Assembly (NCBI RefSeq): GCF_001753205.1
Contig: NZ_CP017560.1
Span: forward strand, 1,550,001 to 1,614,000
DNA: 64,000 nucleotides
DNA from: Sporosarcina ureilytica
GTDB taxonomy: Bacteria > Bacillota > Bacilli > Bacillales_A > Planococcaceae
Direction: 5' to 3'
The position numbers and the translations under genes are program-made. This document shows, piece by piece, positions 9,654-41,707 of this stretch. Below the pieces are notes generated by a model, which made no database searches, was not told the origin of the DNA, and worked only from the letters and a program-made list of their open reading frames with translations. Each line of letters starts with the position of its first letter. Positions within the stretch are counted from its first letter, which is position 1.

Positions 9654-10050
9654 TCCCTAGAATTGGTTAACCTTCCACATTAATCTTATTGCAATAAGGA
9701 GGCAGTTATAACAGGCTAAGGAATGAATTTTGGATTGGACTTAGGTCGTAATGACGAGTACCCGTGCCGAATCTTTATCAAAGAGGATTCAGTTACAATA
9801 GTATTTTCAAGTAAATTTATAGATGAAAACTATAAGTTTATTAATAATAAGTATTTGAAAGTTTGTAAATATTCAAATAGAATAATCATATGGAGGGTGG
9901 GGAACTCAAGAGTTATATTTAATTTCAGACACTGAAAAATAAAAGGCTTTTGAAAGCGCTTTAAACGAGTGGTTAGTGGAGATATGAAGCTGTTTTAAAT
10001 CATGTGATTTTTGACTTACAAAAAATTTGAAAGAACGAGGGGGAAAAACT
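9654..10050. other. Intergenic region before the TRAP operon
   Basis: About 400 bases between the divergent RND and TRAP genes. It holds an orphan AAGGAGG at 9697-9703 with no start codon at proper spacing, and an open frame of 70 codons at 9723-9935 whose only Shine-Dalgarno-like AAGGA touches the ATG and whose sequence I do not recognise. Near the end lies a cre-like site. Promoters for both flanking genes should be here, but none is clear enough to place. Confidence 0.5.
9951..9964 (+). promoter_or_regulatory. cre-like site (CcpA) upstream of TRAP genes
   Basis: TGAAAGCGCTTTAA matches the CcpA consensus TGWNANCGNTNWCA at all fixed positions but one (A instead of C near the end). It lies about 90 bases before the TRAP binding-protein start. 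It suggests carbon catabolite control of the uptake system. One mismatch makes it less certain than the site at 24249. Confidence 0.45.
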
Positions 10051-11088
10051 ATGAATAAAACGTTAAGCAGATTAGGAGTTTTAGGATTGTTTTTACTGTT
10101 GATTTTAGCGGCATGTAGTGACGGTGCTAGTGATAGTTCGAGTAAAGGGGATAGTGGTAAAAGTAGCTCAAATGATGAAGTGTATACAATCACTATTTCA
10201 AACTCAGTTGAGGAAGATACACCGTTACACAAAGGATTAATCAGGTTTAAAGAAGTAGCTGAAGAAAAGTCAGATGGCAGATTACAAGTAGAAGTTTTTT
10301 CAAATGCTGAATTATATGCTTCTGAGAGAGAAGCAATTGAAGCGGTTCAAGCAGGAAATATTCAAGCTGCGAGCCCAGCGACAGCACCTTTATCTAACTT
10401 TGTAGAAGAGTTTCAGGCACTAGACTTTATGTTTGTGTTTAAAGATATTGATGATGCGAACGCTACATTAGATGGTGAATTAGGAGATATTCTTAAAGAA
10501 AAGTTGGAAGAGGTCCAGTTAAAAGGAATCGGTTGGGGTAGTGCGGGATTGACGCAAATTACGAATAACTCCAGACCACTTGAAACAATTGAGGATTTTG
10601 AAGGTTTAAAACTTAGAACAATGGAAAACAACATTCATTTAGATAGTTTAAAAGAGTTTGGTGCAAACCCACAGCCGTATGCATTCGGTGAATTATACTC
10701 TGCTCTACAGCAAAATATCTTTGATGGAATGCAGACAACGGCACAGTTGATTCAAAGCTCTAAAGTGTATGAAGTTCAGAAGTATATCTCAATTATTGAT
10801 AATTCATTTACTGCAGAAGCGCTAATTATGAATAAAGCTTTCTATGATTCTTTACCAGAAGATTTACAAAAAGTTGTAGATGAGGCTGGAGAAGAATTTA
10901 CAACGTATGAAAGAGAAATTTCCAAAGAATACGATGAAGAAGCTATTAAGTTTTTAACAGAAGAACTAGAGGCAAATATTGTGTCTGAAGAAGTAAGAGA
11001 AGAGATGGGCAAAAGATTACAGCCTATTATGGACAAGTATGAAGAGCAACTAGGTTCTGAATTAATGGATTTAGTTAGAAATCAGTAA
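10051..11088 (+). CDS. TRAP transporter solute-binding lipoprotein (DctP family)
   Basis: Extracytoplasmic binding protein of a tripartite ATP-independent periplasmic transporter. The ATG at 10051 follows GAGGGGG and gives 345 residues with a lipoprotein signal peptide: MNKTLSRLG, a Leu-rich core, then LAAC with the lipidated Cys at residue 22, followed by a Ser/Gly-rich linker. The mature domain shows the DctP pattern: EREAIEAVQAGNIQ, the LRTMEN segment with the carboxylate-binding Arg, and YSALQQNIFDGMQ. TRAP-P proteins bind organic acids through that Arg. Its place before histidine-pathway genes suggests an imidazole acid, 2-oxo acid or 2-hydroxy acid as ligand (inference). A strong hairpin separates it from the membrane genes. 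Confidence 0.92.
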   Translation: MNKTLSRLGVLGLFLLLILAACSDGASDSSSKGDSGKSSSNDEVYTITISNSVEEDTPLHKGLIRFKEVAEEKSDGRLQVEVFSNAELYASEREAIEAVQAGNIQAASPATAPLSNFVEEFQALDFMFVFKDIDDANATLDGELGDILKEKLEEVQLKGIGWGSAGLTQITNNSRPLETIEDFEGLKLRTMENNIHLDSLKEFGANPQPYAFGELYSALQQNIFDGMQTTAQLIQSSKVYEVQKYISIIDNSFTAEALIMNKAFYDSLPEDLQKVVDEAGEEFTTYEREISKEYDEEAIKFLTEELEANIVSEEVREEMGKRLQPIMDKYEEQLGSELMDLVRNQ

Positions 11089-11111
11089 TAAATAAAAAAA
11101 GGTAACAAAGT

Positions 11112-11151
11112 ATTTCCCGATTGTTATTTTCATAAATAACAATCGGGAAAT
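11112..11151 (+). terminator. Intra-operon hairpin between TRAP P and Q genes
   Basis: An 18-bp perfect stem (11112-11129 against 11134-11151; arm begins ATTTCCCGATTG) with a 4-base loop. Only a weak T-rich tail follows. It lies between the binding-protein gene and the membrane-subunit genes, where partial termination or 3'-end protection would give more binding protein than permease. Confidence 0.75.
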
Positions 11152-11304
11152 TATTTAAACGGACTGTGCGAAAATTTAGTGAAACTAATAAATGGCATTA
11201 TTTATTTGAAATGTACACCAGAAAACACTCTACAATTAGGACAGAATAATTACGCTCGTCAGAAGAAAGTAACGACTAAAGTGACGAAGTGGAGGATGTA
11301 TGCG

Positions 11305-11805
11305 GTGAAATTTTTAAATCTATTAAGAAAGATTGAAGAGATATTATTAGCGAGTACCATGATTATTATTCTTCTTTTAATTTTTAGTCAGGCATTATTT
11401 CGTTATTTCTTCGGAAGCGGACTCATTTGGGGAGAAGAGTTGGCAAGATATATTCATGTTGCACAAATTTGGCTTGGTGGAAGTTTAGCGATCAAAAAAG
11501 GTGGTCATATTCGCGTAACCTTTTTTAGAGATTTATTTAATACGCAAGGAAGAAAGTTTATTGATTTAATCGCAACCCTTTTATTTTTTACCTTTATGGT
11601 ATTTATTGCTGTAAAAGGTACGGAATTTATTCTGCATTTAATCGGAACAGGGCAAAAGGCACCGTCAATGGGTATTTTAATGGCTATTCCTTATACGGTC
11701 GTTCCACTTGGTGGTTTACTGATGGCGATTCGTCTGGTTCAGCAATTTAGAATGATATGGAAAGGTAAGTTACTAGATGCAGGGATAGAAGGTGTAGATA
11801 AATGA
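11305..11805 (+). CDS. TRAP transporter small membrane subunit (DctQ family)
   Basis: Four-helix subunit of the TRAP permease. The frame is open from 11179, but the start is best at GTG 11305, nine bases after GGAGG (11291-11295); this gives 166 residues, the usual DctQ size. The ATG at 11296 touches the ribosome binding site. TM1 follows at once (EILLASTMIIILLLIFSQ), then the DctQ landmark GLIWGEELARYIHVAQIWLGG and the GGHIRV motif. Its last codons overlap the DctM start (ATGA), indicating coupled translation. Confidence 0.9.
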   Translation: MKFLNLLRKIEEILLASTMIIILLLIFSQALFRYFFGSGLIWGEELARYIHVAQIWLGGSLAIKKGGHIRVTFFRDLFNTQGRKFIDLIATLLFFTFMVFIAVKGTEFILHLIGTGQKAPSMGILMAIPYTVVPLGGLLMAIRLVQQFRMIWKGKLLDAGIEGVDK

Positions 11806-13085
11806 CAATTGCAGTGTTGTTCATAAGTTTCTTTGCACTCATGTTAATTGGCGTTCCGATTGCGGTCTCTTTAGGGGCATCTACATTATTTACGATGGTA
11901 TTTGCAACTAATCTTCCATTAGGCTCTATTATTACACAGGCGTTTACTTCACTGGATTCATTTTCTCTCTTGGCGATTCCGCTATTTATTTTAGCAGGGG
12001 TTTTAATGAGTCTTGGTGGGGTTTCAAAGCGATTATTACATTTAGCTGATGTGTTGGTAGGTTACTTAGTTGGAGGTTTGGCGCATGGAACGATTCTAGC
12101 TAGTATGTTTTTTGCGGCTATTTCAGGTTCCGGACCCGCAACGGTTGCGGCCATTGGATCGTTCATGATTCCAGCAATGGCAAATAAAGGGTATGATAAA
12201 GGTTTTGCGGCTGCTGTTACAGCAACGGCTGGATCTATCGGTGTTATTATCCCGCCAAGTATTCCTTTTATCATGTTTGGAATCGTTGGTGGCGTATCGA
12301 TTGGCGGACTCTTTTTAGCAGGGATCATTCCAGGTATCTTGGTTGGAGCTGTATTAATGATTGTCTCCTATGGCATTGCAAAAAAGCGAGATTTCCCGAC
12401 AGAAGGAAAATTTCCAACTTTTATGGAAGTGGTAAAAGCATTTAACTATGCGAAATTTGCATTGTTGATTCCTGTCATTATTCTTGGTGGAATATATAGT
12501 GGGTTCTTTTCCCCTACTGAATCCGCTGCAGTAGCATGTATTTATGCGCTTATCATTGGTGTTTTTGTTTATAAAGAAATGAATTTAAGTAAAATTTATG
12601 ATGCATTTTTAGAGGCTACACTCATCACGATTCCAGTGAATATTATTATTAGTTTTTCGATTTCCTTTGCCTATTTACTTAGTATTGAACGAATTCCAAG
12701 AACGATTGCCGAGTTCATTACAGGCATATCTGAAAATATGATCATTACGATGCTCATTATTAGTGCTTTCTTATTTGTAGTTGGAATGTTTATCGATACA
12801 ATTTCTGCGGTGGTCATATTGACACCTATTTTACTGCCTGTTGCAACTGCTGTTGGTATGGAACCAATTCATTTCGGTGTCATTATGATTTGTAACTTGG
12901 CGATTGGATATGTTACTCCGCCACTTGGGGTAAATCTGTTTGTTGCTTCGCATATTAGTAAAGTGTCAATTGAACGGATAAGCCGCGCATTAGTTCCATT
13001 TATTATCGCAATGGTTGTTGTCGTGATTATACTTATTTTAATTCCGCAGTTGTCTCTGTTTATACCTAATATTGCTCTAAATTGA
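11802..13085 (+). CDS. TRAP transporter large membrane subunit (DctM family)
   Basis: Ion-coupled permease subunit of 427 residues with about 12 TM helices. The N-terminus shows the DctM pattern of a hydrophobic helix, GVPIAVSLGAS, then a segment LLAIPLFILAGVLMSLGGVS. SGSGPATVAAIGSFMIPAM and GVIIPPSIPFIMFGIVG are the conserved discontinuous-helix motifs, repeated in the second half as FVVGMFIDTISAVVILTPILLP and NLAIGYVTPPLGVNLFVAS. The start overlaps the DctQ stop by four bases. With the genes upstream it forms a complete TRAP system for Na+- or H+-driven uptake of an organic acid. Confidence 0.94.
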   Translation: MTIAVLFISFFALMLIGVPIAVSLGASTLFTMVFATNLPLGSIITQAFTSLDSFSLLAIPLFILAGVLMSLGGVSKRLLHLADVLVGYLVGGLAHGTILASMFFAAISGSGPATVAAIGSFMIPAMANKGYDKGFAAAVTATAGSIGVIIPPSIPFIMFGIVGGVSIGGLFLAGIIPGILVGAVLMIVSYGIAKKRDFPTEGKFPTFMEVVKAFNYAKFALLIPVIILGGIYSGFFSPTESAAVACIYALIIGVFVYKEMNLSKIYDAFLEATLITIPVNIIISFSISFAYLLSIERIPRTIAEFITGISENMIITMLIISAFLFVVGMFIDTISAVVILTPILLPVATAVGMEPIHFGVIMICNLAIGYVTPPLGVNLFVASHISKVSIERISRALVPFIIAMVVVVIILILIPQLSLFIPNIALN

Positions 13086-13148
13086 ATGAATAGCATGTCA
13101 ATCCTATAAGAATGCAAATAAAACACGATAGAAGGGAGCAGTCATTAA

Positions 13149-14249
13149 ATGAGATGGAGAAAATATGTCAAACAAATCGCTCCATATGTACCAGGCAAGT
13201 CAATTGAAGCAGTGAAGAAAGAATTCAATCTAGATGCGGTACTGCGACTTGCCTCTAATGAAAACCCACTCGGCCCATCATCAAAAGCAGTCGACGCCAT
13301 GCAGCAGGCAATGGCGGAATCGCATTTATATCCAGACCCTACGGCGGCTGAATTGAGAGAAAAGCTAGCAACGATTTATGGGGTTCTTCCAGAACAGATT
13401 ATTACTGGAAATGGTGCAGATAATGTTATTTCATTTGTAATTAGTGCGTTTGTAAATGAAGGAGATGAAGTGCTTTATTGTACGCCAACATTCCCAGCCT
13501 ATCGCTCTACAACGCTTTTAATGGGGGGGAAACCTGTTGAAGTACCTTTAACAAAGGAATTGACCTTTGATCTTGATAGCTTAAAAGAAAATATTACAGA
13601 TAAGACAAAACTTATTTTTATTTGTAATCCAAACAATCCAACAGGTACGATTGTTGAATCAAATGCATTGGAACAATTTATTGCCAGTGTTCCTGAACAT
13701 GTCACTGTCATTCTGGATGAGGCGTATATCGAATATGTTCGTAAAGAAAATTATTTAACTGGCATTGATTTTTTCAAGAAGGGCTATCCAGTGATTACGA
13801 TTAGAACATTTTCAAAGTTTTATAGCTTGGCAGGTCTCCGAGTTGGTTATGCAGTTGCATCAGAGGAAATGTTAGCGCCTATGTTACGTCTTCGAGAACC
13901 GTTTGCAGTGAATCGACCAGCGATTGCTGCGGCTGTTGCAACATTGGATGATACGGAATTTACTGAAGATCATTTTGAAATGAATGAAGCGGAAAAACTA
14001 GCCTTATCTGAAAAGATGGAGGAGCTCGGCTTTACCGTCTATCCGTCATCAACGAATTTCTTATTCATCCATATTAAAAGTGACGCACAAGAGTTATTTA
14101 ATGCGTTGTTGAAAAAGGGGATTATTATTCGACCATGTACCGGTTGGGGATATGATGAATATGTCCGAATTTCAATAGGTACGAAAGAACAAAATGAATT
14201 GTTACTGTCCACATTGAAACAATTAGAATCAGTTAAAACTGTTAGATAA
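13149..14249 (+). CDS. HisC-like PLP aminotransferase
   Basis: Fold-type I aminotransferase of 366 residues, close to histidinol-phosphate aminotransferase (HisC/Cobc group). Landmarks are SNENPLGPS at the N-terminus, the glycine-rich TGNGADNVI, NPNNPTGT, DEAYIEY, and the PLP lysine K223 in RTFSKFYSLAGLRVGYA. The C-terminal RISIGTKEQN holds the substrate carboxylate Arg. A HisC for biosynthesis would be expected among his or aro genes. Here it follows a TRAP system, 64 bases after dctM, and precedes a 2-hydroxyacid dehydrogenase and hut genes. I therefore infer a catabolic role, moving the amino group between histidine and imidazolepyruvate or handling another aromatic amino acid. Confidence 0.88.
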   Translation: MRWRKYVKQIAPYVPGKSIEAVKKEFNLDAVLRLASNENPLGPSSKAVDAMQQAMAESHLYPDPTAAELREKLATIYGVLPEQIITGNGADNVISFVISAFVNEGDEVLYCTPTFPAYRSTTLLMGGKPVEVPLTKELTFDLDSLKENITDKTKLIFICNPNNPTGTIVESNALEQFIASVPEHVTVILDEAYIEYVRKENYLTGIDFFKKGYPVITIRTFSKFYSLAGLRVGYAVASEEMLAPMLRLREPFAVNRPAIAAAVATLDDTEFTEDHFEMNEAEKLALSEKMEELGFTVYPSSTNFLFIHIKSDAQELFNALLKKGIIIRPCTGWGYDEYVRISIGTKEQNELLLSTLKQLESVKTVR

Positions 14250-14273
14250 CGTTAATGGGAGGAATGATTTTTC

Positions 14274-15254
14274 ATGGGAAAGAAAAGGGTTTGGATTTTG
14301 GATGATGAGTGGTTTACACATGAATTGGAAAAAGAAATATATACAGAGCATGATATTGAGTTTAAAGTGACAAGAAGTGAATCTTTTAAAAACGACTTTG
14401 AATCATTCGGAAAAGATGCGGACGGAATTGTTGCACAAGTTGGATTTAATTTTGGTGCAGCATACATCTCCCGATTAACAAAATGCAAAATTATCGCCTC
14501 TTCCGGTGTTGGATTTAACCATATTGATTTAAATGCATCCGCGCAAAAAGGGATTTATGTAACGAATATGGCAGATTACTGTATTGGCGAAGTATCAGAT
14601 CATACAATTGCCTTAGCGTTAATTGTTTCTCGTAGACTTCGTGCTTATAATGAACAAGTGAAAAATGGGCAGTGGGATCCGTTAGATACATTACCAATTC
14701 ATCGTCTACAAGGCAGAACAGTAGGACTTTTAGGGTTTGGTCGGATTGCTAAAGAAGTAGCGAAAAAGTTTAAAGTATTTGGTGTGAATGTGATCGCTCA
14801 TGATAAATATGTTCCAGAAGAAGTGTTTACAAAACTCGGGGTCGAATCTGTCACATTGGAAGAATTGCTAGAGAGGTCAAATATTTTAAGTTTACATGTG
14901 CCATTAACGAAAGAAACAGAAGGACTTATTAATTATGAGCGCCTAAAGCAATTACAAAAAGGCTCAATCATCATTAACACGTGCCGAGGCGCAATAATAA
15001 ATGAGGATGATTTAACTCTTGTCATTAAAGAAGGACATATTGCCGGAGCGGGACTGGATGTTTTAGTAGAGGAACCGCCAAATAAGGATTTGGAGCTACT
15101 TCATTTAGATGAAGTGTATGTAACACCACATTCATCTTATGTATCAATTGAATCGGAATATGAACTCCGCTCACGGACAGCTTTAAATGTGATTCGTGCA
15201 ATGGACGGGGAGGTTCCGGAGTTTGTGCAAAATGATGTAAAAGTAAAGGTGTAA
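14274..15254 (+). CDS. D-2-hydroxyacid dehydrogenase
   Basis: NAD-dependent 2-hydroxyacid dehydrogenase (326 residues) that interconverts a 2-oxo acid and its D-2-hydroxy acid. The Rossmann motif reads GLLGFGRIA. The catalytic trio is Arg in INTCRGAIIN, Glu in GLDVLVEEPP, and His in VTPHSSYV. It starts 25 bases after the aminotransferase with a GGGAGG site, so the two are one operon. Together they could turn imidazolelactate into imidazolepyruvate and then histidine, or the reverse. The substrate is inferred from context only; D-lactate-like or phenyllactate-like substrates are also possible. A strong bidirectional terminator follows. Confidence 0.9.
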   Translation: MGKKRVWILDDEWFTHELEKEIYTEHDIEFKVTRSESFKNDFESFGKDADGIVAQVGFNFGAAYISRLTKCKIIASSGVGFNHIDLNASAQKGIYVTNMADYCIGEVSDHTIALALIVSRRLRAYNEQVKNGQWDPLDTLPIHRLQGRTVGLLGFGRIAKEVAKKFKVFGVNVIAHDKYVPEEVFTKLGVESVTLEELLERSNILSLHVPLTKETEGLINYERLKQLQKGSIIINTCRGAIINEDDLTLVIKEGHIAGAGLDVLVEEPPNKDLELLHLDEVYVTPHSSYVSIESEYELRSRTALNVIRAMDGEVPEFVQNDVKVKV

Positions 15255-15269
15255 CAATTTAGTTGCCAT

Positions 15270-15311
15270 AAAAAATGAACTCTTAACATGTAAAATAAGA
15301 GTTCATTTTTT
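15270..15311. terminator. Bidirectional terminator
   Basis: A 16-bp perfect stem (15270-15285 against 15296-15311), A-rich on one side and T-rich on the other, lies between the convergent dehydrogenase and LysR genes and overlaps the LysR stop codon. It suits both directions. Confidence 0.85.
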
Positions 15312-16193
15312 AGTTTTAAAATACGCTTTCGTTCTCGTAATAAATTCTTCCACAACGGGAGGTAAATAACGATTTTTCATATATGCAAGATAAACTGTTC
15401 TTGCTAAGTTACTGTCAGCAATTGTTTTAATTGTCAGTGATGCATGATTGGAAGCAGTAATATAATTTTCTGGAACAATTGTGATACCGAGGCCTTCCTC
15501 AACTAGTGAAAAGGCGGTTTCAAATCGTTCAAATTCAAAGTGAATATTGGGACTAATTCCTGCGTTTCGAAATGCACTTACGATATCTTGACGGGTTTGA
15601 AACCCTTCTTTACCAATAATGAACTTTTCATGCATTAAATCATTCAGTGTGATGTTTTGTTTGTTTTGCAAGGAATGTTCTTTGGGAAACACAGCAACCA
15701 AGTTCTCTTTGTAAATTGGTATCGTAACGATTTCTTTATTGTCGAAATATTGATTAGTAATCGCGAGATGCATTTTATAGTTTTTTAGCGCTAACTCGAC
15801 CTGTTTTAGTCCAAGCACTTCAACTAGTTGAATATGGATATCCGGATTTGATTTGATATAAGATGAGATGACTTTCGGTAACCATGATTTTACAGATTCG
15901 ATTAAGCCAATTTGCAATTCTAGAGGACCGAGATTTTTTAGACGGGACATTTCTTCTCTTACATGTGTAAATTGATTCAGTAAATTTTTAGCTTCTTTAT
16001 ATAAAATTTCGCCCTCTTTGGTTAAAGAGATTTTTCGTGTAGTTCTTTCAATTAAAGTAAGGCCCATGCTTTCTTCTAATTTTTTTATAGCCGAACTTAA
16101 TGATGGTTGGGAAATGTGTAGTTCTTTTGAAGCTTTTGTAAAAGATCCTTTATCAATGAGTGCGGTAAAATAGAGTAACTGTCTTTCATCCAT
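15303..16193 (-). CDS. LysR-family transcriptional regulator
   Basis: LysR-type regulator of 296 residues. The N-terminal winged helix-turn-helix spans about residues 1-60 (YFTALIDKGSFTKASKELH, then SQPSLSSAIKKLEE), followed by the linker helix and a periplasmic-binding-like effector domain from ~90 to the end. It is transcribed away from the RidA gene and the hut genes, sharing a ~210-base intergenic region. LysR proteins normally control the divergent neighbour and respond to a pathway metabolite, so an imidazole acid or urocanate is a likely effector (inference). Confidence 0.93.
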   Translation of the reverse strand: MDERQLLYFTALIDKGSFTKASKELHISQPSLSSAIKKLEESMGLTLIERTTRKISLTKEGEILYKEAKNLLNQFTHVREEMSRLKNLGPLELQIGLIESVKSWLPKVISSYIKSNPDIHIQLVEVLGLKQVELALKNYKMHLAITNQYFDNKEIVTIPIYKENLVAVFPKEHSLQNKQNITLNDLMHEKFIIGKEGFQTRQDIVSAFRNAGISPNIHFEFERFETAFSLVEEGLGITIVPENYITASNHASLTIKTIADSNLARTVYLAYMKNRYLPPVVEEFITRTKAYFKTKK

Positions 16194-16327
16194 ATGGAAT
16201 CACCAACCTTAACTATTAATAAGTTTAGTTAAATAAATAACATTAGAAGTTTGCTTTATTAAGTTGCACGGAAAGTCTTGTAACATTTTTTATGAAATCT
16301 ATATAGGCGTATTTTGTTTATTATAGC

Positions 16328-16368
16328 ATAGGTTGTTAAAAAATAAGCTTTATATAGTTGTAACCTAT
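16328..16368. promoter_or_regulatory. Inverted repeat in the LysR/RidA divergent region
   Basis: ATAGGTT at 16328-16334 is mirrored by AACCTAT at 16362-16368, with AT-rich DNA between. It lies about 35 bases before the RidA start and 135 bases from the LysR start. Such inverted repeats are typical of LysR-type binding sites, but no footprint-like consensus can be claimed. Confidence 0.35.
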
Positions 16369-16403
16369 AGGTAATTAATATTTAATTTTGGAGGTTCAGT
16401 GAA

Positions 16404-16862
16404 ATGAGTATATACAAAAGATTACGTGAATTAGAGATTGTTTTACCAACACCCCCTAAACCGGCTGGTCTTTATGTCCCTTGCCGTTTAATGGGGAACG
16501 TACTATATACTTCCGGACAAGATTGCAGAATTGACGGGAAATTGGCTTATGAAGGAAAGTTGGGGAGAGATTTAACCGTTGAACAGGGTTATGATGCCGC
16601 AAGACTGACGATGCTCAATTGTTTGGCAGTGATTGAACAGGAAATCGGTGATTTAAATAGGATTAAACAGATTATCAAATTGTTAAGTTTTGTAAATTCA
16701 ACAGATAGTTTCATAGCGCAACCTTCTGTTATAAATGGGGCCTCCCAAGTTTTGATAGATGTTTTTGGGGAAGCAGGTAAACATGCCCGTACAGCTTTAT
16801 CGGCTAATTCATTACCATTCAATATACCGTTAGAAATTGAAATGATTGTTGAGATAAAATGA
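16404..16862 (+). CDS. RidA/YjgF-family protein
   Basis: Small trimeric RidA-fold protein of 152 residues, of the longer sub-group found near catabolic genes. It starts with KRLRELEIVLPTPPKPAGLYVPCRLMGNVLYTSGQ and has GKLGRDLTVEQGYDAARLTMLNCLAVI in the middle and ANSLPFNIPLEIEMIVEI at the end (each seen in part). The catalytic Arg of true imine deaminases, which lies in a C-terminal R-x-x-V-x-V-x-x-L-P pattern, is at best shifted here (HARTALSANSLP). RidA proteins hydrolyse reactive enamines and imines made by PLP enzymes. Its place between an aminotransferase operon and hut genes suggests clearing an imine from imidazole metabolism; the exact reaction is unknown. Confidence 0.82.
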   Translation: MSIYKRLRELEIVLPTPPKPAGLYVPCRLMGNVLYTSGQDCRIDGKLAYEGKLGRDLTVEQGYDAARLTMLNCLAVIEQEIGDLNRIKQIIKLLSFVNSTDSFIAQPSVINGASQVLIDVFGEAGKHARTALSANSLPFNIPLEIEMIVEIK

Positions 16863-16990
16863 CGAATTCTGTGAGAGTTATTAATTATCTATTGACTGAA
16901 ACTATACATATATAGAAAATTCGTATTTGTGTAAATAAATATGATGGAATACAATAGAGTTGATGATACTGTCAGCAGGGGTGAATTTTT

Positions 16991-17953
16991 ATGTATTATA
17001 ATTGGACAGGACGAGTTGATAAAAATGGAAAAGGTAAGCGCATTCATCAAATCGTTCGAAATATAGATATAAATGAATTAAAGAGAAAAGAACAACGAAC
17101 TATTAGTTTTGTTGGTTTTGAATGTGATGAAGGTGTTAAAAGAAACCAAGGTAGATTAGGTGCTTCTAAGGCACCAAATGAAATTCGGAAACTACTTGCA
17201 AGCATTCCTTATCACAACGAAAATAAAAGTCTTATAGATGTAGGTAATGTACGTTGCATTAACAATGATTTGGAAGAAGCACAAGCACAATTAGGACATC
17301 ATGTAGCCAAATTATTGGAAAATAACTACACGCCAATTATTTTAGGTGGGGGTCATGAAACATTTTATGGTCATTACTTAGGGGCAAGAAAGGCACTAGG
17401 TAAAGATAAGAAAATCGGCATGATAAATTTAGATGCACATTTTGACTTACGACTGGATGAGCAGTCATCATCTGGAACGATGTTTCGTCAAATTTTGGAA
17501 GATGATGAAAAAGCGGAATATTTATGCATCGGAATACAGGAATTAGGGAATACAGAACAACTGTTTTTAACGGCAGATGAATTAAATGTACAATATATAT
17601 TGGAACAGGATATTCAGCCGCTTGAAAATACTTTTGCTAAAATAAGTGAATTCTCACAAGAACAAGATTATATTATTTATACGATTTGTACAGATGTAAT
17701 CAATCAAGCGTATGCCCCGGGTGTAAGTGCTCCGGCTCCATTTGGAATTGAGCCGCAACTTGTAAGAGCGATTACAAAACATATTGTACAGCAAAATAAT
17801 TTTTTAAGTATGGATATTTCTGAAGTTAATCCTACGCTCGATATAGCAGATAAAACGAGTAGACTCATTAGTTATGTGATTGGAGAAACTTTAACACATT
17901 TAAATGAAAAAGAAAAAACCTTTTATGATATAGGAGTGGAGAACACGGTATGA
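16991..17953 (+). CDS. hutG: Formimidoylglutamase
   Basis: Ureohydrolase-family enzyme (320 residues) that splits N-formimino-L-glutamate into glutamate and formamide, the last step of the Hut pathway. Metal-binding motifs are visible as [10 protein letters not shown] (H122), NLDAHFDLR (D148, H150, D152), and a later segment [12 protein letters not shown] in place of the usual S-x-D-x-D-x-x-D-P. In that last motif only the central Asp of the expected acids is kept. The GVSAPAPFG segment is typical of HutG. The gene leads the hutG-hutH-hutI run, overlapping the first possible hutH start. Assignment is supported by both sequence and neighbours. Confidence 0.9.
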
Positions 17954-18012
17954 TTCAGCTTGGTGTGAAAGCAAACTCACTTGCAGAACCGATTAGAAAT
18001 GGGGGGGAAGAT

Positions 18013-20817: not shown

Positions 20818-20950
20818 GAATCGCCTCTAACTTTCTGAACACAAAAAGCGTTTTCATTTGTGATGACACTTCCTATGTACGTTATAGTTTCAAAGACTTA
20901 GTAAGCTTCACAAGCAGTTAGATGAAAGTTTTAGGCGAAGGAGTTTTAGT

Positions 20951-22591: not shown

Positions 22592-22597
22592 GACACC

Positions 22598-24178
22598 ATG
22601 ATTTCATTAGGAATTTACAATCACCGAATCCTTTATGATGAACTGTCAGATTACGAAAATTTTCAAATTGAGATTCTTGAGACACTTACTGATGTAATGG
22701 ACTTCTCAAAATACGACTTGGTCATTCTGAATATTTCCGATATCAAAGAGGAACAGTATTCTTACTTCCTGAACCAATTAAAACAGCTAGATATGTCAAA
22801 AGTTATCTTTATAAACAAAGCCTTTTCTATAGAACAAGTGAAAAAGTTAATGTTTTTAGGAGCGTACGATTGTCTTACACTCCCTGTACATATCCCTGAT
22901 TTACTGAGAATCCTGACAGATGCCTTTGCAGACATAAAAAGAGCAAAACGCAGAAGGCAGAAAAAAGAAACATATAAAATTAATTCAATTAGAGCAAGTT
23001 TAGCCTATGATCTTTTACATGGAAATATAAAAAATGCGAAAGAAATATGGGAACGCAGCCAGTTGGCAAATCTATCACTGATCCCAAATACTGTTCTATT
23101 ATTACGAATTGACCACTTTACCAAATTAGTGGAGAACAAAGGGGAACTATGGAAAAAATCATTACGAGAAGAAGTGCTTCATGCGATGCAAGGTTGTGAG
23201 CTGAACTATGAATCATTAACAGTTCTCGTGAATCAACAGAAATTTGCCATACTATTATCTTTACCAGTCCAATTAGAGGAAAAGAAGTATAAGCAGCTTG
23301 CAATTGAATATGCAGAAAAAATCCGTACACAAATTAATAATGAAACAGACTACACGGTTACAATTGGAATTGGAAATTATTACGAAGATGCACGTAACCT
23401 TCATCTTTCTTATCAAGAAAGTGAACAAGCGCAAAGCCATCGACTATTTCAAGAAGAAAACGCTATCATCCATAAAGAAGAGCTGGATTATTTCGATACG
23501 CCAAAATATCACGAATACAAAATTCAAATTCAAGAAATGACTAATAAATTTCTACTTGGCGATATTACCGCTGTACATACAATTTGGGAAGAAATTTATC
23601 AATCTGTCGCTACCAAACGTAATTTTCAGCCTGAAGACTTTCGTCTGCAAGTGTTAGATTTATTATTCTCACTGACAAAAACAGCAATCCAAAATGGTGC
23701 AAATCCAAAACAGATGATGCCATTACAAATAAAACATGCCAAAGAACTTCATGACATCGAATCAATAGCCGAGATTGATGCGTGGATGACAGATATTATT
23801 AATGAGTATATCCACTATGTGAATGAAGGTCATAATGAAGAAGTGCTGAAATCTGTACAACAAGGATTGCAATTTATTGAAGATTATTTTCATGAAGATA
23901 TCGGCCTGGATTTGATTGCTGATAAGGTCGATTTAAGTCCAAATTATTTGAGTGCGATCTTTAAGCAAACGACAGGAACTTCGTTTATTGAGTATTTAAC
24001 AAACTTAAGGGTGGAAAAAGCAAAAGAGAAACTACAAGATTTAAATTTGGCTGTCTCTGAAATTGCTGAATCAGTTGGATACAGCTCTTCCCAGTATTTT
24101 AGTAGAGTTTTTAAGAGAAATACCGGGATGACACCAAGTGCCTACCGAAATAGTATCTTAACTACTAGTAAAATATAA
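22598..24178 (+). CDS. AraC-family regulator with degenerate receiver domain
   Basis: YesN-like regulator of 526 residues. The N-terminus (~1-115) has a receiver-like fold pattern, but the phosphorylation site reads YDLVILNIS with Asn45 where Asp is expected, and the acidic pair near residue 8 is missing (LGIYNHR). A long middle domain follows, and the last ~100 residues are a double AraC helix-turn-helix (IGLDLIADKVDLSPNYLSAIFK, IAESVGYSSSQYFSRVFKRNTGMTPS, each seen in part). It starts seven bases after the paralogue-1 urocanase gene. No histidine kinase is nearby, so it probably senses a ligand or partner without phosphorylation and controls the hut genes. Confidence 0.88.
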   Translation: MISLGIYNHRILYDELSDYENFQIEILETLTDVMDFSKYDLVILNISDIKEEQYSYFLNQLKQLDMSKVIFINKAFSIEQVKKLMFLGAYDCLTLPVHIPDLLRILTDAFADIKRAKRRRQKKETYKINSIRASLAYDLLHGNIKNAKEIWERSQLANLSLIPNTVLLLRIDHFTKLVENKGELWKKSLREEVLHAMQGCELNYESLTVLVNQQKFAILLSLPVQLEEKKYKQLAIEYAEKIRTQINNETDYTVTIGIGNYYEDARNLHLSYQESEQAQSHRLFQEENAIIHKEELDYFDTPKYHEYKIQIQEMTNKFLLGDITAVHTIWEEIYQSVATKRNFQPEDFRLQVLDLLFSLTKTAIQNGANPKQMMPLQIKHAKELHDIESIAEIDAWMTDIINEYIHYVNEGHNEEVLKSVQQGLQFIEDYFHEDIGLDLIADKVDLSPNYLSAIFKQTTGTSFIEYLTNLRVEKAKEKLQDLNLAVSEIAESVGYSSSQYFSRVFKRNTGMTPSAYRNSILTTSKI

Positions 24179-24248
24179 GGGGTATTTTTAACAGTGATAC
24201 TTGTCTACTAATCTATGAACTGAAATAGAAGGGGAATAGTCTATTGTA

Positions 24249-24262
24249 TGTAAGCGTTAACA
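24249..24262 (+). promoter_or_regulatory. Perfect cre site (CcpA operator)
   Basis: TGTAAGCGTTAACA matches the CcpA consensus TGWNANCGNTNWCA at every fixed position. It lies directly before the ribosome binding site of the YjiH-type gene, where bound CcpA would block transcription. Catabolite repression of hut genes through cre is known in Bacillus, which fits. Confidence 0.75.
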
Positions 24263-24278
24263 TAAGGGGGAAACGGTG

Positions 24279-25613
24279 ATGAAAGCTGAAAATATTACAG
24301 AAACAACGATGGCACATAGTTATATAAAATTTTCAAATATATTTAAATTAGTTTTTTATAGTGCTGTTGGCGCTTTTATGTTTTTTATTCCGATAACAAT
24401 CGACGGTAAATCGTCTATCATGCTCGATCATATCGTAACATTTTTACGAGGTGGAATACCTCCGTTTGTCATACATTTCTACATTGCAATTATTTTAGTT
24501 GTGGGAGCAACTTACCCATTTGTTACTCGGACTTGGAACAAAACGATCACATCTACGATTATGTCTTTCCTAAAAGTTGTTGGACTGATACTTGGACTCA
24601 TGCTTATTTTAGGTGTAGGTCCAGCCTGGATGTTTCAAGAAGATATGGGTCCGTTTATACTGAATGCTTTAGTTACTCCTGTTAGTATACTCGTTCCTGT
24701 AGGCGCTCTTTTTTTAGCCTTACTTGTCGGGTATGGATTACTCGAATTTATCGGAATATTAATGCAACCGGTCATGCGCCCGATTTTCAGAACACCTGGA
24801 AGGTCAGCAATCGATGCGGTCGCCTCGTTTGTCGGAAGTTATTCGATTGGTCTTTTGGTTACGAACCGTATTTATAATGAGGGGAAATATACGAAAAGAG
24901 AAGCGATAATTGTTGCGACTGGATTTTCAACTGTATCGGCGACGTTTATGGTTGTCATTGCGAACACGCTTGATATCATGTCGATTTGGAACTTTTATTT
25001 CTGGACATCTTTAGTCATCACATTTACGGTGACGGCTATTACAACCCGTTTATGGCCAATCAGTAGTACACCGGATACGTATGTTAATGGAGAAGGAGAT
25101 CCGGAATTAGTCATCGAAAAGGATCGTTTAAAAACAGCGTGGAATGAAGCACTTAAAGTCGCGGATGATAGTGAACCATTATACCGCTATATTCTTGTCA
25201 GTTTAAAAGAAGGTATTCAAATGGTCATGAGTATTTTGCCGACAATTCTTTCGGTAGGTCTTCTTGGCTTAGTATTGGCAACCTATACGCCGATCTTTGA
25301 TTTATTAGGCTATATTTTCTATCCGATTACGTACCTATTAAAAATACCCGAGCCTTTACTAGTCGCTAAAGCAAGTGCGATTTCCATTACAGAAATCTTC
25401 TTGCCATCTTTATTAGTTGTCGGAGCTCCGTTAATGACGAAATATATTGTAGCTGTCTTATCTGTATCGTCAATTTTATTTTTCTCAGCTTCCATTCCAA
25501 GTATGTTGGCGACAGATATACCTTTCAGTGTACCGAAATTAGTCGTTATTTGGTTTATAAGAGTTGTTTTAACATTGATGATTACTACTCCAGTTGCGTA
25601 CCTTTTCTTATAG
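24279..25613 (+). CDS. YjiH-family membrane protein (nucleoside-recognition/Gate domains)
   Basis: Integral membrane protein of 444 residues with about 10-11 TM helices and Gate-type segments (GRSAIDAVASFVGSYSIGLLVTNR and FLPSLLVVGAPLMTKYIVAVLSVSSILF, in part). The ATG at 24279 lies eight bases after AAGGGGG; a GTG at 24276 is closer. YjiH proteins have no settled function, but the Gate domain occurs in nucleoside transporters. Flanked by urocanase, CoA-transferase and acyl-CoA dehydrogenase genes and lying under a cre site, it is a good candidate for import of histidine, urocanate or a related imidazole acid (inference). Confidence 0.82.
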   Translation: MKAENITETTMAHSYIKFSNIFKLVFYSAVGAFMFFIPITIDGKSSIMLDHIVTFLRGGIPPFVIHFYIAIILVVGATYPFVTRTWNKTITSTIMSFLKVVGLILGLMLILGVGPAWMFQEDMGPFILNALVTPVSILVPVGALFLALLVGYGLLEFIGILMQPVMRPIFRTPGRSAIDAVASFVGSYSIGLLVTNRIYNEGKYTKREAIIVATGFSTVSATFMVVIANTLDIMSIWNFYFWTSLVITFTVTAITTRLWPISSTPDTYVNGEGDPELVIEKDRLKTAWNEALKVADDSEPLYRYILVSLKEGIQMVMSILPTILSVGLLGLVLATYTPIFDLLGYIFYPITYLLKIPEPLLVAKASAISITEIFLPSLLVVGAPLMTKYIVAVLSVSSILFFSASIPSMLATDIPFSVPKLVVIWFIRVVLTLMITTPVAYLFL

Positions 25614-25750
25614 TGCACAATGTTACAGTGGAAAAGTACACTTTATCGTATAATTTTCAACTATCAAAAAATACACTTTCTGATAAAGTATTAAGTAAGG
25701 GTACGAAAGTTCTGTGATATTAGAATCTTCGGGCAAGGGGAGGGGTTACA

Positions 25751-26896
25751 ATGAAGCAACCTTTAGAAGGAATAAAAGTTTTGGACTTTTCAAGAGTTTT
25801 AGCTGGTCCCTACTGTACGATGTTGTTAGCAGATATGGGAGCAGAAGTTATTAAAATTGAAAGGCCGGAAACAGGAGATGATACTCGACATTTTGGTCCG
25901 TTCCAAAATGGTGAAAGCGGTTATTTCATGTTTTTGAACCGCGGTAAAAAAAGTGTTGAGTTGAACTTGAAAGAAGCTTCCGATCGTGAAAGTTTAATGG
26001 CGTTAATTAAAGAAGCAGATGTTATTGTAGAAAATTTCCGCCCTGGTGTTATGAAAGGGTTAGGATTAGATTATGAAACTTTGAAAGAAGTTAATGAAGG
26101 TTTAGTCTATTGTTCGATTTCAGGTTTTGGTCAGTATGGACCTTATAGTAAGCGACCTGCCTATGATATCGTTGCACAAGCTATGGGGGGAATTGCTAGT
26201 ATCACTGGCTATCCAGACAATCCGCCTACTAGATCTGGTGCATCACTTGGAGATATGAGTGCAGCGCTTTATGCAGCATATGGCGTGATGGTTGCTCTTT
26301 TCCATAGGGAACGAACAGGCATTGGTCAAGAAATCGATGTTGCGATGGTCGACTCAATTTTCGCATTGCTTGAACATAATGTCATGCGTTACACATCAGA
26401 AGGCGTTACTCCTGAGCGAGTTGGAAATCGCCATCCGATTAGTGCGCCGTTTGATGTATATGAAAGTAAAGAGGGACATGTAGTCATAGCAACGGCGAAC
26501 GAGTCTTTATTCGCTAGACTTTGTAAGGTGATGGATAAAGAAGAGTTGTTAGAGGACGCACGTTTTGTGACAGATATTGAGCGTGGGAAAAATGAAAGCG
26601 AATTAAAAGTAATTATTGAAGAGTGGCTGTCACAATATACTGCTGAAGAAGCAGTAAATCTTATTAATGAGGCTGGAGTACCTAGCTCAACAATTTTAAA
26701 TATTGCTGAAATCAGTGAAAGTGATCATGTAAAAGAAAGAGAAATGTTGCTTGAGATTGAGCATCCAATTGCAGGTAAGACACGTATTCCAGGTAACCCT
26801 GTTAAATTATCAAAAACACCTATACAAGTTAAGTCACCAAGCCCAGCTTTAGGTGAACATAACGACATGATTAAACAGAAATTTAAAGCAAAGTGA
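25751..26896 (+). CDS. CaiB/BaiF-family (class III) CoA-transferase
   Basis: Moves CoA from an acyl-CoA to a free carboxylic acid. The 381-residue protein starts with the typical PLEGIKVLDFSRVLAGPY and has VENFRPGVMKGLGLDY, SISGFGQYGPY, and the catalytic Asp168 in SLGDMSAALYAAYG. The ribosome binding site is GGGGAGGGG. Eleven bases separate it from the acyl-CoA dehydrogenase gene, so the two form an operon. CaiB with CaiA in carnitine metabolism, and FldA with AcdA in phenylpropionate formation, show the same pairing. In this hut context the natural acid pair would be imidazolepropionate and urocanate (inference). Confidence 0.9.
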   Translation: MKQPLEGIKVLDFSRVLAGPYCTMLLADMGAEVIKIERPETGDDTRHFGPFQNGESGYFMFLNRGKKSVELNLKEASDRESLMALIKEADVIVENFRPGVMKGLGLDYETLKEVNEGLVYCSISGFGQYGPYSKRPAYDIVAQAMGGIASITGYPDNPPTRSGASLGDMSAALYAAYGVMVALFHRERTGIGQEIDVAMVDSIFALLEHNVMRYTSEGVTPERVGNRHPISAPFDVYESKEGHVVIATANESLFARLCKVMDKEELLEDARFVTDIERGKNESELKVIIEEWLSQYTAEEAVNLINEAGVPSSTILNIAEISESDHVKEREMLLEIEHPIAGKTRIPGNPVKLSKTPIQVKSPSPALGEHNDMIKQKFKAK

Positions 26897-26906
26897 GTGA
26901 TCAACT

Positions 26907-28046
26907 ATGAATTTTGATTTTACAGAGGAACAAAAAAGTATTCGAGATATGGTCAGAAATTTCACAAGAGATGTCATTGCTCCTAAAGCAGAAGAAATTG
27001 ACCGTGACAATCGTTTTCCTAAAGAACATATTTCAAAGATGGGGGAACTTGGTCTGTTAGGAATTGCGTATCCAGAGGAAGACGGTGGCGTTGGCGCTGA
27101 TGCTATTTCTGAGGCAATTGCTGTTGAAGAAATTACATATGGCTGTGCTGCAACGGGTTCAATCTTGACTGCCCATTATTTAGGGATAGATGGACTTTAT
27201 CTTGCGTCAAATAAAGAACAGCGAGAAAAGTATTTAGTTCCAGGTTGCCAAGGTGAAAAGTTATTTGCCTTTTGTTTGACAGAACCGATTGGAGGCACGG
27301 ACGTTTCTTCCATGAAAACAACTGCAAAACGTGATGGAGATACATATGTGCTGAATGGTTCGAAAATCTTTATCACAAATGGTTCTTATGCAGATACACT
27401 AGTTGTTTATGCAAAAACAGATACAGCAAAAGGCAGTAAAGGAATCAGTGCATTCATCGTTGAAAAAGATACGCCTGGTTTATCATTTGGAGCTGGCGAT
27501 GACAAAATGGGAATTCGCGGTGCAACAACAGACGAAGTCATTTTTGAAAACTGTGTCATTCCGGCAGAAAACCTTGTTGGAGAAGAAGGAGAAGGCTTCA
27601 AAATTGCGATGCAAGTAGTTGACCGCGGAAGAATCGGAATTGCTGCAATGGCCATTGGTTTATCCCAAGCTGCAATCGATGAAGCGGTAAACTATTCGAA
27701 GGAACGAGAAGCATTCGGTCAGACAATTAACAAGTTCCAAGGACTTCAATGGATGATGGCAGAGATGGAGACGGATCTTGCTGTCGGCCGATTGTACACA
27801 TATTTTACAGCTAGTTTAAAAGATAAAGAAGGATATAGATTGTCAAAAGAAGCATCAATTGCAAAATTATTTACCTCTGAAGCATCTAATAGAATTGTAA
27901 ATAAAGCCGTTCAAATCCATGGCGGTTATGGCTATATGAAAGAGTATACAGTTGAAAGACTGTACAGAGATCAGCGAATTCTAGAAATCTTTGAAGGAAC
28001 ATCACAAGTGCAGAAAATGGTTATTGCTCATCATTTATTGAAATAA
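26907..28046 (+). CDS. Acyl-CoA dehydrogenase
   Basis: FAD-dependent acyl-CoA dehydrogenase of 379 residues. FAD- and substrate-binding motifs are LTEPIGGTDVSSMKTTA, KIFITNG, and QIHGGYGY. The catalytic Glu is E363 in IFEGTSQVQ, the position used by short- and medium-chain members. It follows the CoA-transferase gene by eleven bases with a weak ribosome binding site, so translation may be coupled. It would place a 2,3-double bond in an acyl-CoA. If the substrate is imidazolepropionyl-CoA the product is urocanyl-CoA, which the neighbouring CoA-transferase could release as urocanate. A general fatty or branched acyl-CoA substrate is the alternative. Confidence 0.92.
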   Translation: MNFDFTEEQKSIRDMVRNFTRDVIAPKAEEIDRDNRFPKEHISKMGELGLLGIAYPEEDGGVGADAISEAIAVEEITYGCAATGSILTAHYLGIDGLYLASNKEQREKYLVPGCQGEKLFAFCLTEPIGGTDVSSMKTTAKRDGDTYVLNGSKIFITNGSYADTLVVYAKTDTAKGSKGISAFIVEKDTPGLSFGAGDDKMGIRGATTDEVIFENCVIPAENLVGEEGEGFKIAMQVVDRGRIGIAAMAIGLSQAAIDEAVNYSKEREAFGQTINKFQGLQWMMAEMETDLAVGRLYTYFTASLKDKEGYRLSKEASIAKLFTSEASNRIVNKAVQIHGGYGYMKEYTVERLYRDQRILEIFEGTSQVQKMVIAHHLLK

Positions 28047-28152
28047 AGCTTGTGAAATTTCTTCATAATTCAAAAAAACTGCGGCGTTCATAGTCACTAT
28101 GTCGCTATCTAAAGTAGTTTAATAATAGTCAATTAAAAAGGAGAGTTATGAA

Positions 28153-29814
28153 ATGAGTCTAAAAGTTCAAGAAATCCGTGCCCCTCGTGGGAATAAGTTA
28201 AATTGTAAAGGTTGGGTCCAGGAAGCCGCATTGCGTATGCTTATGAATAACCTCGATCCAGAAGTAGCTGAAAATCCAGATGATCTTGTTGTATACGGTG
28301 GAATCGGTAAAGCAGCTAGAGACTGGGAAAGTTACCATAAAATCATTGAAGAATTAAAAGAATTAGAGAATGATGAAACATTATTAATCCAATCAGGTAA
28401 GCCTGTTGGGAAATTCAGAACACATGAGAACTCACCACGTGTATTAATCGCTAACTCGAATTTAGTTCCTGCATATGCGAACTGGGAGCATTTTAATGAG
28501 TTAGATAAAGAAGGACTCATGATGTATGGACAAATGACAGCAGGAAGCTGGATTTACATCGGAGCACAAGGAATTCTCCAAGGTACTTACTTAAGTTTTG
28601 TTGAAGCAGGAAAGAAACTTTACGGAACACCTGACTTAACAGGTAAATTTATTTTAACTGGTGGTATGGGTGGAATGAGTGGAGCTCAGCCACTAGCAGG
28701 TAAAATGGCAAAAGCAGTTATTTTAGTGGTTGAAGTTGATCGTAAGAGAATCGAAAGAAAAATCAAAGAAAAATACTGTGACTATATTTTTGAAGATCTT
28801 GACGAAGCATTAGATAAAGTCAAAGAATTGACTGCAAAAGGCGAGCCAGCTTCAATCGGTTTAGTTGGAAACTGTGCAGATGTTTTCCAAGAAATTCATG
28901 ACCGGGGTATTGTACCAGATATCGTTACAGACCAAACGAGTGCACATGACCCAAGAAACGGTTATGTTCCAAGCGGCATGACGTATGAAGAAGCTCTAAA
29001 ACTAAGAGAAGAAGATCCAGATAAATATGAGGAACTTTCACTTGAAACAATTGCGAATCATGTAAGAGCAATGTTAGCTCTACAAGAAGCTGGATCAGAA
29101 ACGTTTGACTATGGAAATAACATTAGACATTATGCAAAAGTACAAGGTGTAGAAAATGCGTTTGACTTCCCAGGATTCGTTCCGGCATATCTACGTCCAC
29201 TGTTCTGTGAAGGAAACGGTCCTTTCCGTTGGGCTGCATTATCAGGAGAGCCTGAAGATATTTATAAAACAGACCAATTAGCAAAAGAAATGTTTGCTGA
29301 TAATGAAGCGTTAGTAAACTGGATTGACATGGCTCAGAAAATGGTTGCATGGCAAGGTTTACCAGCAAGAATTTGTTGGTTAGGTTACGGTGAGCGTCAT
29401 AAGTTTGCCCTAAAAGTAAATGAAATGGTTGCAAGTGGTGAACTAAGTGCACCTATTGTATTCGGACGTGATCATTTGGACAGTGGCTCAGTTGCTTCAC
29501 CAAACCGTGAGACGGAATCAATGAAAGATGGCAGTGATGCAGTAGCAGACTGGCCGATCTTAAATGCACTAGTAAACACTGCTGGTGGAGCGAGTTGGGT
29601 AAGTTTACACCACGGTGGTGGGGTTGGAATGGGATATTCAATTCATGCTGGTCAAGTATTAGTTGCTGATGGAACGGAAGAAGCAGCTGAAAAGATCAAA
29701 CGTGTCCTTGTGTCTGACCCGGGAATGGGCGTTATTAGACACGCCGATGCAGGCTATCAGAGAGCGATGGATGTTGCTGAAGAGCGCGGCGTTCATATTC
29801 CAATGAAGAAGTAA
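28153..29814 (+). CDS. hutU: Urocanate hydratase (canonical)
   Basis: NAD-dependent enzyme that turns urocanate into imidazolonepropionate. The 553-residue protein keeps the whole family signature: [17 protein letters not shown], the active-site Cys408 in [32 protein letters not shown], and the His486-His487 pair in [17 protein letters not shown]. The start ATG 28153 follows AAAGGAGA; an overlapping two-codon ATG-AAA-TGA precedes it. It ends the island with a strong terminator. It is the gene that should supply the main urocanase activity, in contrast to the divergent copy at 20951-22591. Confidence 0.96.
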
Positions 29815-29825
29815 TTAATTTAATA

Positions 29826-29868
29826 AGAGAACTGTTCACTAAGTTTATGTGAGCAGTTCTCTTTTTTT
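29826..29868 (+). terminator. Rho-independent terminator after hutU
   Basis: A stem of 14 bp pairs 29826-29839 (AGAGAACTGTTCAC) with 29849-29862, with one G-T pair, followed by seven T. It closes the imidazole island. A near-identical stem sequence without the T-run recurs at 31533-31569. Confidence 0.88.
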
Positions 29869-41705: not shown

Positions 41706-41707
41706 TC

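Follow-up and report, generated by a model that had tools for sequence, protein, structure and literature searches.

A hut gene island of Sporosarcina ureilytica proposed to funnel several imidazole acids into histidine catabolism

Organisation of the island

The window analysed in this study is a stretch of 64,000 nucleotides of the Sporosarcina ureilytica genome (C1:1550001–1614000, in a genome of 3.44 Mb). Within it, 16 genes spanning positions 10051–29814, from the start of dctP to the end of hutU, form an island in which the genes of histidine utilization (Hut) stand together with those of a TRAP transporter, an aminotransferase, two dehydrogenases, a coenzyme A (CoA) transferase, a second urocanase and two regulators. 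Judged by its gene content, its conserved linkage, the clade structure of its urocanases and protein identities indicative of horizontal transfer, it is a genuine extension of the Hut pathway, conserved and probably mobile. A preliminary description of the locus, made from the sequence, had listed these genes, and all of the named ones were found as intact open frames with a match to the expected family (a weak one for DctQ); the end of the island, placed there at position 29868, lies at 29814, where the last stop codon ends. The genes are as follows (bit scores are given with the curated cut-off of the family where there is one; the 12 core loci are described below):

10051..11088, + strand: TRAP solute-binding protein DctP (TIGR00787, 228 bits, cut-off 175); orthologue in 5 of the 12 core loci, including the window
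11179..11805, + strand: TRAP small permease DctQ, between DctP and DctM (weak NCBIfam match to YiaM, 31 of 260 bits; orthologues 64–74% identical)
11802..13085, + strand: TRAP large permease DctM (TIGR00786, 432 bits, cut-off 268)
13149..14249, + strand: HisC-like aminotransferase, proposed imidazolepyruvate/histidine aminotransferase (TIGR01141, 358 bits, cut-off 277)
14274..15254, + strand: D-2-hydroxyacid dehydrogenase (ddh), proposed imidazolelactate dehydrogenase (PGDH/glyoxylate reductase-like, below all NCBIfam cut-offs listed)
15303..16193, - strand: LysR-type regulator, divergent from the next operon; in the same place in three other Sporosarcina and in Pseudogracilibacillus auburnensis
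16404..16862, + strand: RidA/YjgF-like protein (PF14588, 106 bits), not conserved in related islands
16991..17953, + strand: hutG, formimidoylglutamase (TIGR01227, 285 bits, cut-off 229)
17950..19503, + strand: hutH, histidine ammonia-lyase (TIGR01225, 700 bits, cut-off 539), the only PF00221 match of the genome
19519..20817, + strand: hutI, imidazolonepropionase (TIGR01224, 473 bits, cut-off 298)
20951..22591, + strand: uro2, diverged urocanase paralogue (TIGR01228, 772.6 bits, cut-off 375)
22598..24178, + strand: AraC-family regulator with a GGDEF_2-like middle part (PF12833, PF17853)
24276..25613, + strand: YjiH-like membrane protein, proposed imidazole-acid permease (PF07670, Gate)
25751..26896, + strand: CaiB-type (class III) CoA-transferase, proposed urocanoyl-CoA:imidazolepropionate CoA-transferase (best NCBIfam match CoA:oxalate CoA-transferase, 385 bits, cut-off 522)
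26907..28046, + strand: acyl-CoA dehydrogenase (ACAD), proposed imidazolepropionyl-CoA dehydrogenase (best NCBIfam match acryloyl-CoA reductase, 476 bits, cut-off 640; best match among solved structures 5ol2_C)
28153..29814, + strand: hutU, urocanate hydratase of an island-specific clade (TIGR01228, 948 bits, cut-off 375)

HutG, HutH, HutI and both urocanases thus scored above the curated cut-offs of the Hut families (TIGR01227, TIGR01225, TIGR01224 and TIGR01228). The products of ddh, caiB and acad fell below every functional NCBIfam cut-off, so that family models do not reveal their substrates, which have to be sought in the genomic context. Subunits of a 2-hydroxyacyl-CoA dehydratase (as in the reductive Stickland, or Fld, systems) were not found beside the CoA-transferase: the 16 island genes belong to other families and the remaining frames of at least 90 amino acids overlap them (a result that covers the island and not the remainder of the genome).

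Linkage of caiB and acad to urocanase genes

Close relatives of the island ACAD were found in 5 of 261 genomes of the family (E up to 1e-170), and a sample of 398 genomes of the class included 3 with a close relative of CaiB (E up to 1e-125). A genome scan with ACAD gave, among its best 80 loci, six at 77–91% identity, followed by the next at 59%; genomes G208, G414 and G500 (74–77%) were not among the matches listed, so the scan was not exhaustive. After merging, 12 core loci were obtained, all of them in Bacilli: the window, G028, G232 (S. aquimarina) and G248 (three sister Sporosarcina genomes), G208, P. auburnensis, Cytobacillus citreus, Bacillus chungangensis, Siminovitchia terrae, Virgibacillus chiguensis, G414 and G500. 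These were selected by similarity thresholds and not by genomic context. Among plasmid records, CaiB had no match at E 1e-120.

At all 12 loci caiB and acad were adjacent and a urocanase gene was present within the same run, with a variable gene order. The second urocanase, uro2, was found at 11 of them (V. chiguensis is without it) and the island-type hutU at 10, none being present within the examined flanks of C. citreus and B. chungangensis. The 74 remaining ACAD loci among the best 80 (identity of at most 59%) served as a control: within their examined flanks a urocanase gene occurred at one (Oscillibacter ruminantium), and hutH, hutI or hutG at none. As 28 of these loci were shorter than 20 kb (46 were of at least 20 kb and 8 were below 10 kb), the control is somewhat lenient. 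The linkage of caiB-acad with urocanase genes (12/12 vs 1/74) exceeds chance.

Two of these loci bear on the origin of urocanate. In G208 (completeness given as 100), hutU, hutI, hutG, uro2, caiB, acad and yjiH lie together and the genome has no PF00221 ammonia-lyase match, so its urocanate must come from a source other than histidine deamination. V. chiguensis has a single urocanase match in its assembly (completeness not stated), located in the run yjiH-caiB-acad-hutU-hutG-hutI-HutP-hutH, and consequently any acrylate made there by CaiB and ACAD should suit that urocanase. Both loci fit the production of urocanate from imidazolepropionate by ACAD and CaiB, as far as gene content can tell. 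Frames resembling AhpF, AhpC and an M20 peptidase (by eye) adjoin the G208 cluster (locus L065).

The neighbourhood of the module varies. A gene for a sodium:solute symporter (SSS) precedes caiB-acad in C. citreus, B. chungangensis, G414 and G500, in the last with a transposase-like frame in between, and G028 has, on a further contig, a YjiH-like gene next to hutU and hutI. P. auburnensis and S. terrae carry genes for an electron transfer flavoprotein (ETF; etfB-etfA) and an Fe-S/CCG oxidoreductase beside the module, while G500 has the oxidoreductase gene only (ETF at 2/12 and Fe-S at 3/12 loci). These neighbours would favour oxidation by ACAD and suit a flow of electrons to quinone.

The TRAP-hisC-ddh set

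In the window, in the three sister Sporosarcina islands (G028, G232 and G248) and in P. auburnensis, hence at 5 of the 12 loci, the TRAP, hisC, ddh and lysR genes were linked to the core module. Close relatives of ddh were found in 4 of 261 genomes of the family (E up to 1e-110), and all 4 lie inside the island. Among the 398 genomes of the class, two had a ddh match at E up to 1e-85, namely that of the window and a relative of 51% identity in G478. Near the latter, at positions 1752–7008 of locus L219, genes of a type V-B CRISPR system were noticed, encoding Cas12b/C2c1 (1147 amino acids) and a Cas4-Cas1 fusion (Pfam).

The HisC-like protein of the island is 39% identical to the product of the only other hisC of the genome above the cut-off, at C1:2283500, which sits among frames resembling aroA, tyrA, aroH, aroB and aroC (read by eye, with no family search); the presence of this other gene counts in favour of the funnel proposed below. 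A parallel, diverged set was identified on contig 6 of G028 (locus L215, positions 3278–18079). It comprises DctP-DctM-DctQ (31–46% identity), DDH (51%), HisC (53%), HutH (54%), a transporter, a peptidase T-like protein, HutI (42%), YjiH (58%) and a urocanase (45%), which indicates that the set of TRAP, hydroxy-acid dehydrogenase and HisC either stayed with the chemistry of histidine lyase or joined it twice. The simplest reading would be a chain from a hydroxy acid through a keto acid and an amino acid to an acrylate. The parallel set fits a branch from imidazolelactate to histidine and is the best support for it.

Two urocanases

In a midpoint-rooted tree of 45 urocanases, the uro2 proteins (9 rows) and the island-type HutU proteins (7 rows) formed separate clades with a support of 100/100 each, although the long branch of the G208 uro2 may be misplaced. 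An alignment with two more loci than the tree revealed 41 columns with one and the same letter in no fewer than 37 of the 38 HutU rows and in none of the 11 uro2 rows; in 25 of these columns a single different letter is common to all 11 uro2 rows. At two loci, uro2 is the only urocanase within the examined stretch.

Residues Y45, T126, R355, C404, D436 and R448 are kept in all 11 uro2 rows, and these we take to correspond to Tyr52, Thr133, Arg362, Cys410, the Asp of the RDH motif and Arg454 of the Pseudomonas putida active site. Together with the TIGR01228 score this places uro2 among the urocanate hydratases, which does not imply the same function; the active-site Cys, kept in 35 of 38 HutU rows, is no absolute marker. 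Changes from large to small residues (F354C and W478M in 11/11 rows, I131A in 10/11, and M125 to Ala or Ser) are accompanied by changes from small to large (G434T, A390V and, in 10/11 rows, Q397Y). By this mapping onto P. putida we infer that the pocket of uro2 is altered and, tentatively, that its substrate may be a bulkier analogue of urocanate.

Two other roles for uro2 were considered. As a thiourocanate hydratase (NF058530) or an S-methyl thiourocanate hydratase (NF058531) of ergothioneine breakdown it was rejected by score (614.4 vs 930 and 619.1 vs 880 bits, respectively), and hydration of a CoA ester is thought unlikely because the presumed substrate-binding residues are kept. A third urocanase, that of the parallel G028 cluster, also scored below the thiourocanate cut-offs; it has Phe where all HutU and uro2 rows have Arg and is perhaps directed at a modified histidine. 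A relative of it (89% identity) is present in S. terrae (locus L200).

Spread of the island

P. auburnensis has the entire set except RidA, followed by etfB, etfA and the Fe-S oxidoreductase gene. The gene set is thus not unique, and the earlier statement that no Bacillales cluster carries it in full was wrong as a matter of genomics. For 9 of the 11 proteins common to all these islands, the window copy is nearer to that of P. auburnensis (Bacillaceae) than to those of its congeners (Caryophanaceae); dctP and dctM are the exceptions. Identities to P. auburnensis and to the congeners were, for example, 76 and 71–72% for HisC, 83 and 76–77% for DDH, and 94 and 90–91% for HutU. Three proteins of the aromatic block, compared between the same genome and P. 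auburnensis, were only 43–47% identical (HisC 47%). The high identities within the island, set against this block, indicate that it spread by horizontal transfer. Base composition gave no signal of a recent arrival (37.4% G+C in both the island and the window), hence transfer is argued from the protein identities instead.

Regulators and other features of the window

In each of the five islands with TRAP genes, the LysR-type gene points away from the operon that comes after it, and a relative of the AraC-type regulator (35–72% identity) adjoins uro2 at all ten other uro2 loci. The N-terminal part of the latter protein (22598–24178) looks receiver-like by eye, with no receiver-domain hit in Pfam at E 0.001, and no histidine kinase is encoded among the 16 island genes. 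Two candidate DNA sites were located:

24248..24262, + strand: candidate cre-like site upstream of yjiH, with 0 mismatches to the cre pattern
25637..25685, + strand: candidate operator in front of caiB, a direct repeat (two boxes of 14 bases each, spaced 35 bases apart)

The block upstream of caiB is conserved in five genomes, in three of which the boxes are present with 1–3 mismatches; no such pair was seen at the other seven loci. The AraC-type regulator is proposed, as a candidate only, to act at this repeat. Cre-like sites lie in three intergenic gaps (9950, 20843 and 24248), and the whole window has 55 matches with at most one mismatch where 38.8 are expected (a count reached in 1 of 100 shuffles), which makes catabolite repression through them suggestive only. 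Alignments upstream of the LysR and TRAP genes gave no clear common operator, and neither an Rfam scan at the gathering threshold (9600–30500) nor a tRNA scan (6000–34000) gave a match. Further catabolic genes are present downstream in the window, at 40821–44993 (RpiR-type regulator, M20 peptidase and enolase-superfamily enzyme), 53039–56360 (carboxyltransferase and AMP-binding ligase) and 61867–63180 (a second TRAP DctM).

A proposed funnel for imidazole acids and its alternatives

We propose that the island could act as a catabolic funnel through which several imidazole acids enter the Hut pathway. In one branch, the TRAP transporter would import an imidazole 2-hydroxy acid (D-imidazolelactate), the D-2-hydroxyacid dehydrogenase would oxidise it to imidazolepyruvate, and the HisC-like enzyme would transaminate the latter to L-histidine, from which HutH would form urocanate. 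The other branch builds on the fact that desaturation of imidazolepropionate gives urocanate. Imidazolepropionate would be taken up by the YjiH-like protein (by the SSS symporter in some relatives), receive CoA from urocanoyl-CoA through the CaiB-type transferase and be oxidised by ACAD to urocanoyl-CoA, with electrons passing via ETF to the quinone pool; the transferase would then release urocanate, so that no ATP would be spent. HutU, HutI and HutG would complete the conversion to glutamate, and uro2 may hydrate a second urocanate analogue from the same front end. Every substrate, the direction of the reactions and the role of each transporter and regulator in this scheme are predictions from gene families and their context. 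We regard the imidazolepropionate branch as quite probable and the imidazolelactate branch as probable, and on balance we favour the funnel in which both act as one.

Several observations weigh against this interpretation. At least one of hutG, hutH and hutI was present in the examined flanks of only 5 of the 12 core loci: the window, P. auburnensis and V. chiguensis have the three together, G208 has hutG and hutI, and S. terrae has hutI. The flanks of the other seven contain none of them. The three sister Sporosarcina islands, from whose examined stretches these genes are absent, have hisC and ddh, and hutH is found elsewhere in their genomes. Among the 74 distant ACAD loci, three have a caiB relative and two of these are without any urocanase, while the G478 relative of ddh adjoins an aminotransferase-like frame and a symporter gene with no hut gene within 19 kb, which speaks against a strict rule linking ddh to hut genes. 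No etf genes were found in the window, and 9 of the 12 loci have neither etf nor the Fe-S gene in the examined stretches. The RidA gene is not conserved: the P. auburnensis stretch gave only chance-level hits (E of 3.4 or worse) and the three sister islands none, and the protein, once counted as a funnel member, has to be removed. The role of uro2 is not accounted for by a plain imidazolepropionate pathway. The preliminary idea of one funnel therefore stands as the best reading, carried by the linkage of caiB-acad to a urocanase and the confinement of the close ddh relatives to the island, and falls short for RidA, for uro2 and in the patchy presence of hutG, hutH and hutI. Likewise, the concern raised with it, that homologues might usually occur apart from hut genes, was for the most part dispelled by these two results, with the G478 ddh and the two distant caiB-acad loci as the cases that did not comply.

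Other explanations share parts of this evidence. CaiB, ACAD and uro2 (perhaps with TRAP, DDH and HisC) might follow the same logic with a ring-substituted acid as the main substrate, e.g. an N-methylated imidazolepropionate or imidazolelactate, uro2 being its dedicated hydratase and HutU serving the plain urocanate that accompanies it. This would explain why uro2 is nearly constant at the core loci and the sole urocanase in the examined stretch at two, as well as its 25 group-specific letters and the large-to-small changes beside presumed pocket residues with the substrate-binding Tyr, Thr and Arg kept; we nevertheless consider it unlikely, as V. chiguensis has caiB-acad with one urocanase and without uro2, the small-to-large changes leave the pocket size ambiguous, the residues were mapped by P. 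putida numbering and not from a complex, and no methyl-removing enzyme was identified in the island. It is less likely still that TRAP, the HisC-like protein, DDH, CaiB and ACAD act on an unrelated aromatic or branched acid, with the hut genes as mere neighbours. All of these proteins except HisC and the TRAP parts belong to broad families with no functional assignment above cut-off, and the G478 ddh would agree with such a view, but the constant linkage of caiB-acad to urocanase despite a varying gene order, the ddh genes confined to the island within the family and the parallel G028 cluster argue otherwise.

The reverse direction, in which reduction of urocanate by way of its CoA ester would yield imidazolepropionate and serve as an electron sink, appears very improbable for the island. 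It is suggested by the best NCBIfam neighbour of ACAD (acryloyl-CoA reductase, below cut-off) and by related sets in anaerobes, and is opposed by the carriers being Bacilli, by the Fe-S oxidoreductase gene at 3 of 12 loci (a kind thought to pass ETF electrons to quinone) and by its need for histidine-derived urocanate, which G208, with hutU, hutI and hutG, is without. The anaerobe sets, of the form yjiH-caiB-acad-etfB-etfA, were located at L074 (5984–18407), L073 (46–6013) and L172 (4815–15542). In O. ruminantium a urocanase of 677 amino acids follows the set directly, and another set is present in a Lachnospiraceae metagenome-assembled genome (MAG). Surveys with these clusters found 1 of 86 Oscillibacter genomes (the query itself, E up to 1e-150) and, in a sample of 391 genomes of the class to which the Lachnospiraceae MAG belongs, 2 (E up to 1e-140), namely the query and G1080; the 20 kb examined in G1080 had no match to the hutG, hutH, hutI or urocanases of the window, and the anaerobe reading is thus only a lead. 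In its broadest and rather doubtful form, caiB-acad might define a CoA-dependent route that connects imidazolepropionate with urocanate without UrdA; aerobic Bacilli would use it for oxidation, whereas in anaerobes it would run backwards as an unrecognised source of imidazolepropionate, and uro2 would be a new urocanase subfamily for the same acids.

Comparison with known systems

UrdA is the enzyme that converts urocanate to imidazolepropionate, according to the accessible text of PMC13320830, which mentions CoA only in its reference list. It links the same two acids as the proposed funnel but is a reductase toward imidazolepropionate, and none was found among the island genes. The accessible parts of PMC12934955 and PMC11872695 contain nothing on imidazolepropionate breakdown. 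In the open-licence literature no paper on CoA esters of urocanate or imidazolepropionate was found, and titles and abstract openings there named no genes for imidazolepropionate breakdown, a weak absence given this coverage. Titles and abstract openings describe imidazole propionate as a microbial product of histidine and connect it with insulin resistance, type 2 diabetes and heart failure. The island offers candidate genes for its breakdown; if the proposal is right, an enzyme pair oxidising this compound would provide a sink that can be tested and a gene marker, and perhaps also a biocatalyst or sensor.

The physiology itself would already be old. A paper of 1973 is said, by its title, to treat the same three acids together in Pseudomonas testosteroni; the title concerns another organism and L-lactate, whereas the island dehydrogenase is of the D-2-hydroxyacid family.

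The Hut pathway of Bacillus subtilis is encoded by hutPHUIGM. The island resembles it in HutH, HutU, HutI and HutG and goes beyond it in the predicted hydroxy-acid and CoA-dependent branches, the second urocanase and the regulators of LysR and AraC type; HutP, with the V. chiguensis protein as the query, had no match in the window. An established route of desaturation is that of the carnitine CaiB/CaiA system (crotonobetainyl-CoA), in which a CoA-transferase works together with an acyl-CoA dehydrogenase on a free acid and no ATP is needed. The island proteins lie well below the cut-offs for carnitine CaiA and CaiB (192.6 of 540 bits, NF002885, and 149.4 of 413 bits, NF002914), which implies another substrate. 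Finally, the thiourocanate and S-methyl thiourocanate hydratases are urocanase paralogues with a changed substrate, as uro2 may be; uro2 is not a member of either by score, and a new urocanase clade with group-specific changes would widen the known urocanase specificities.

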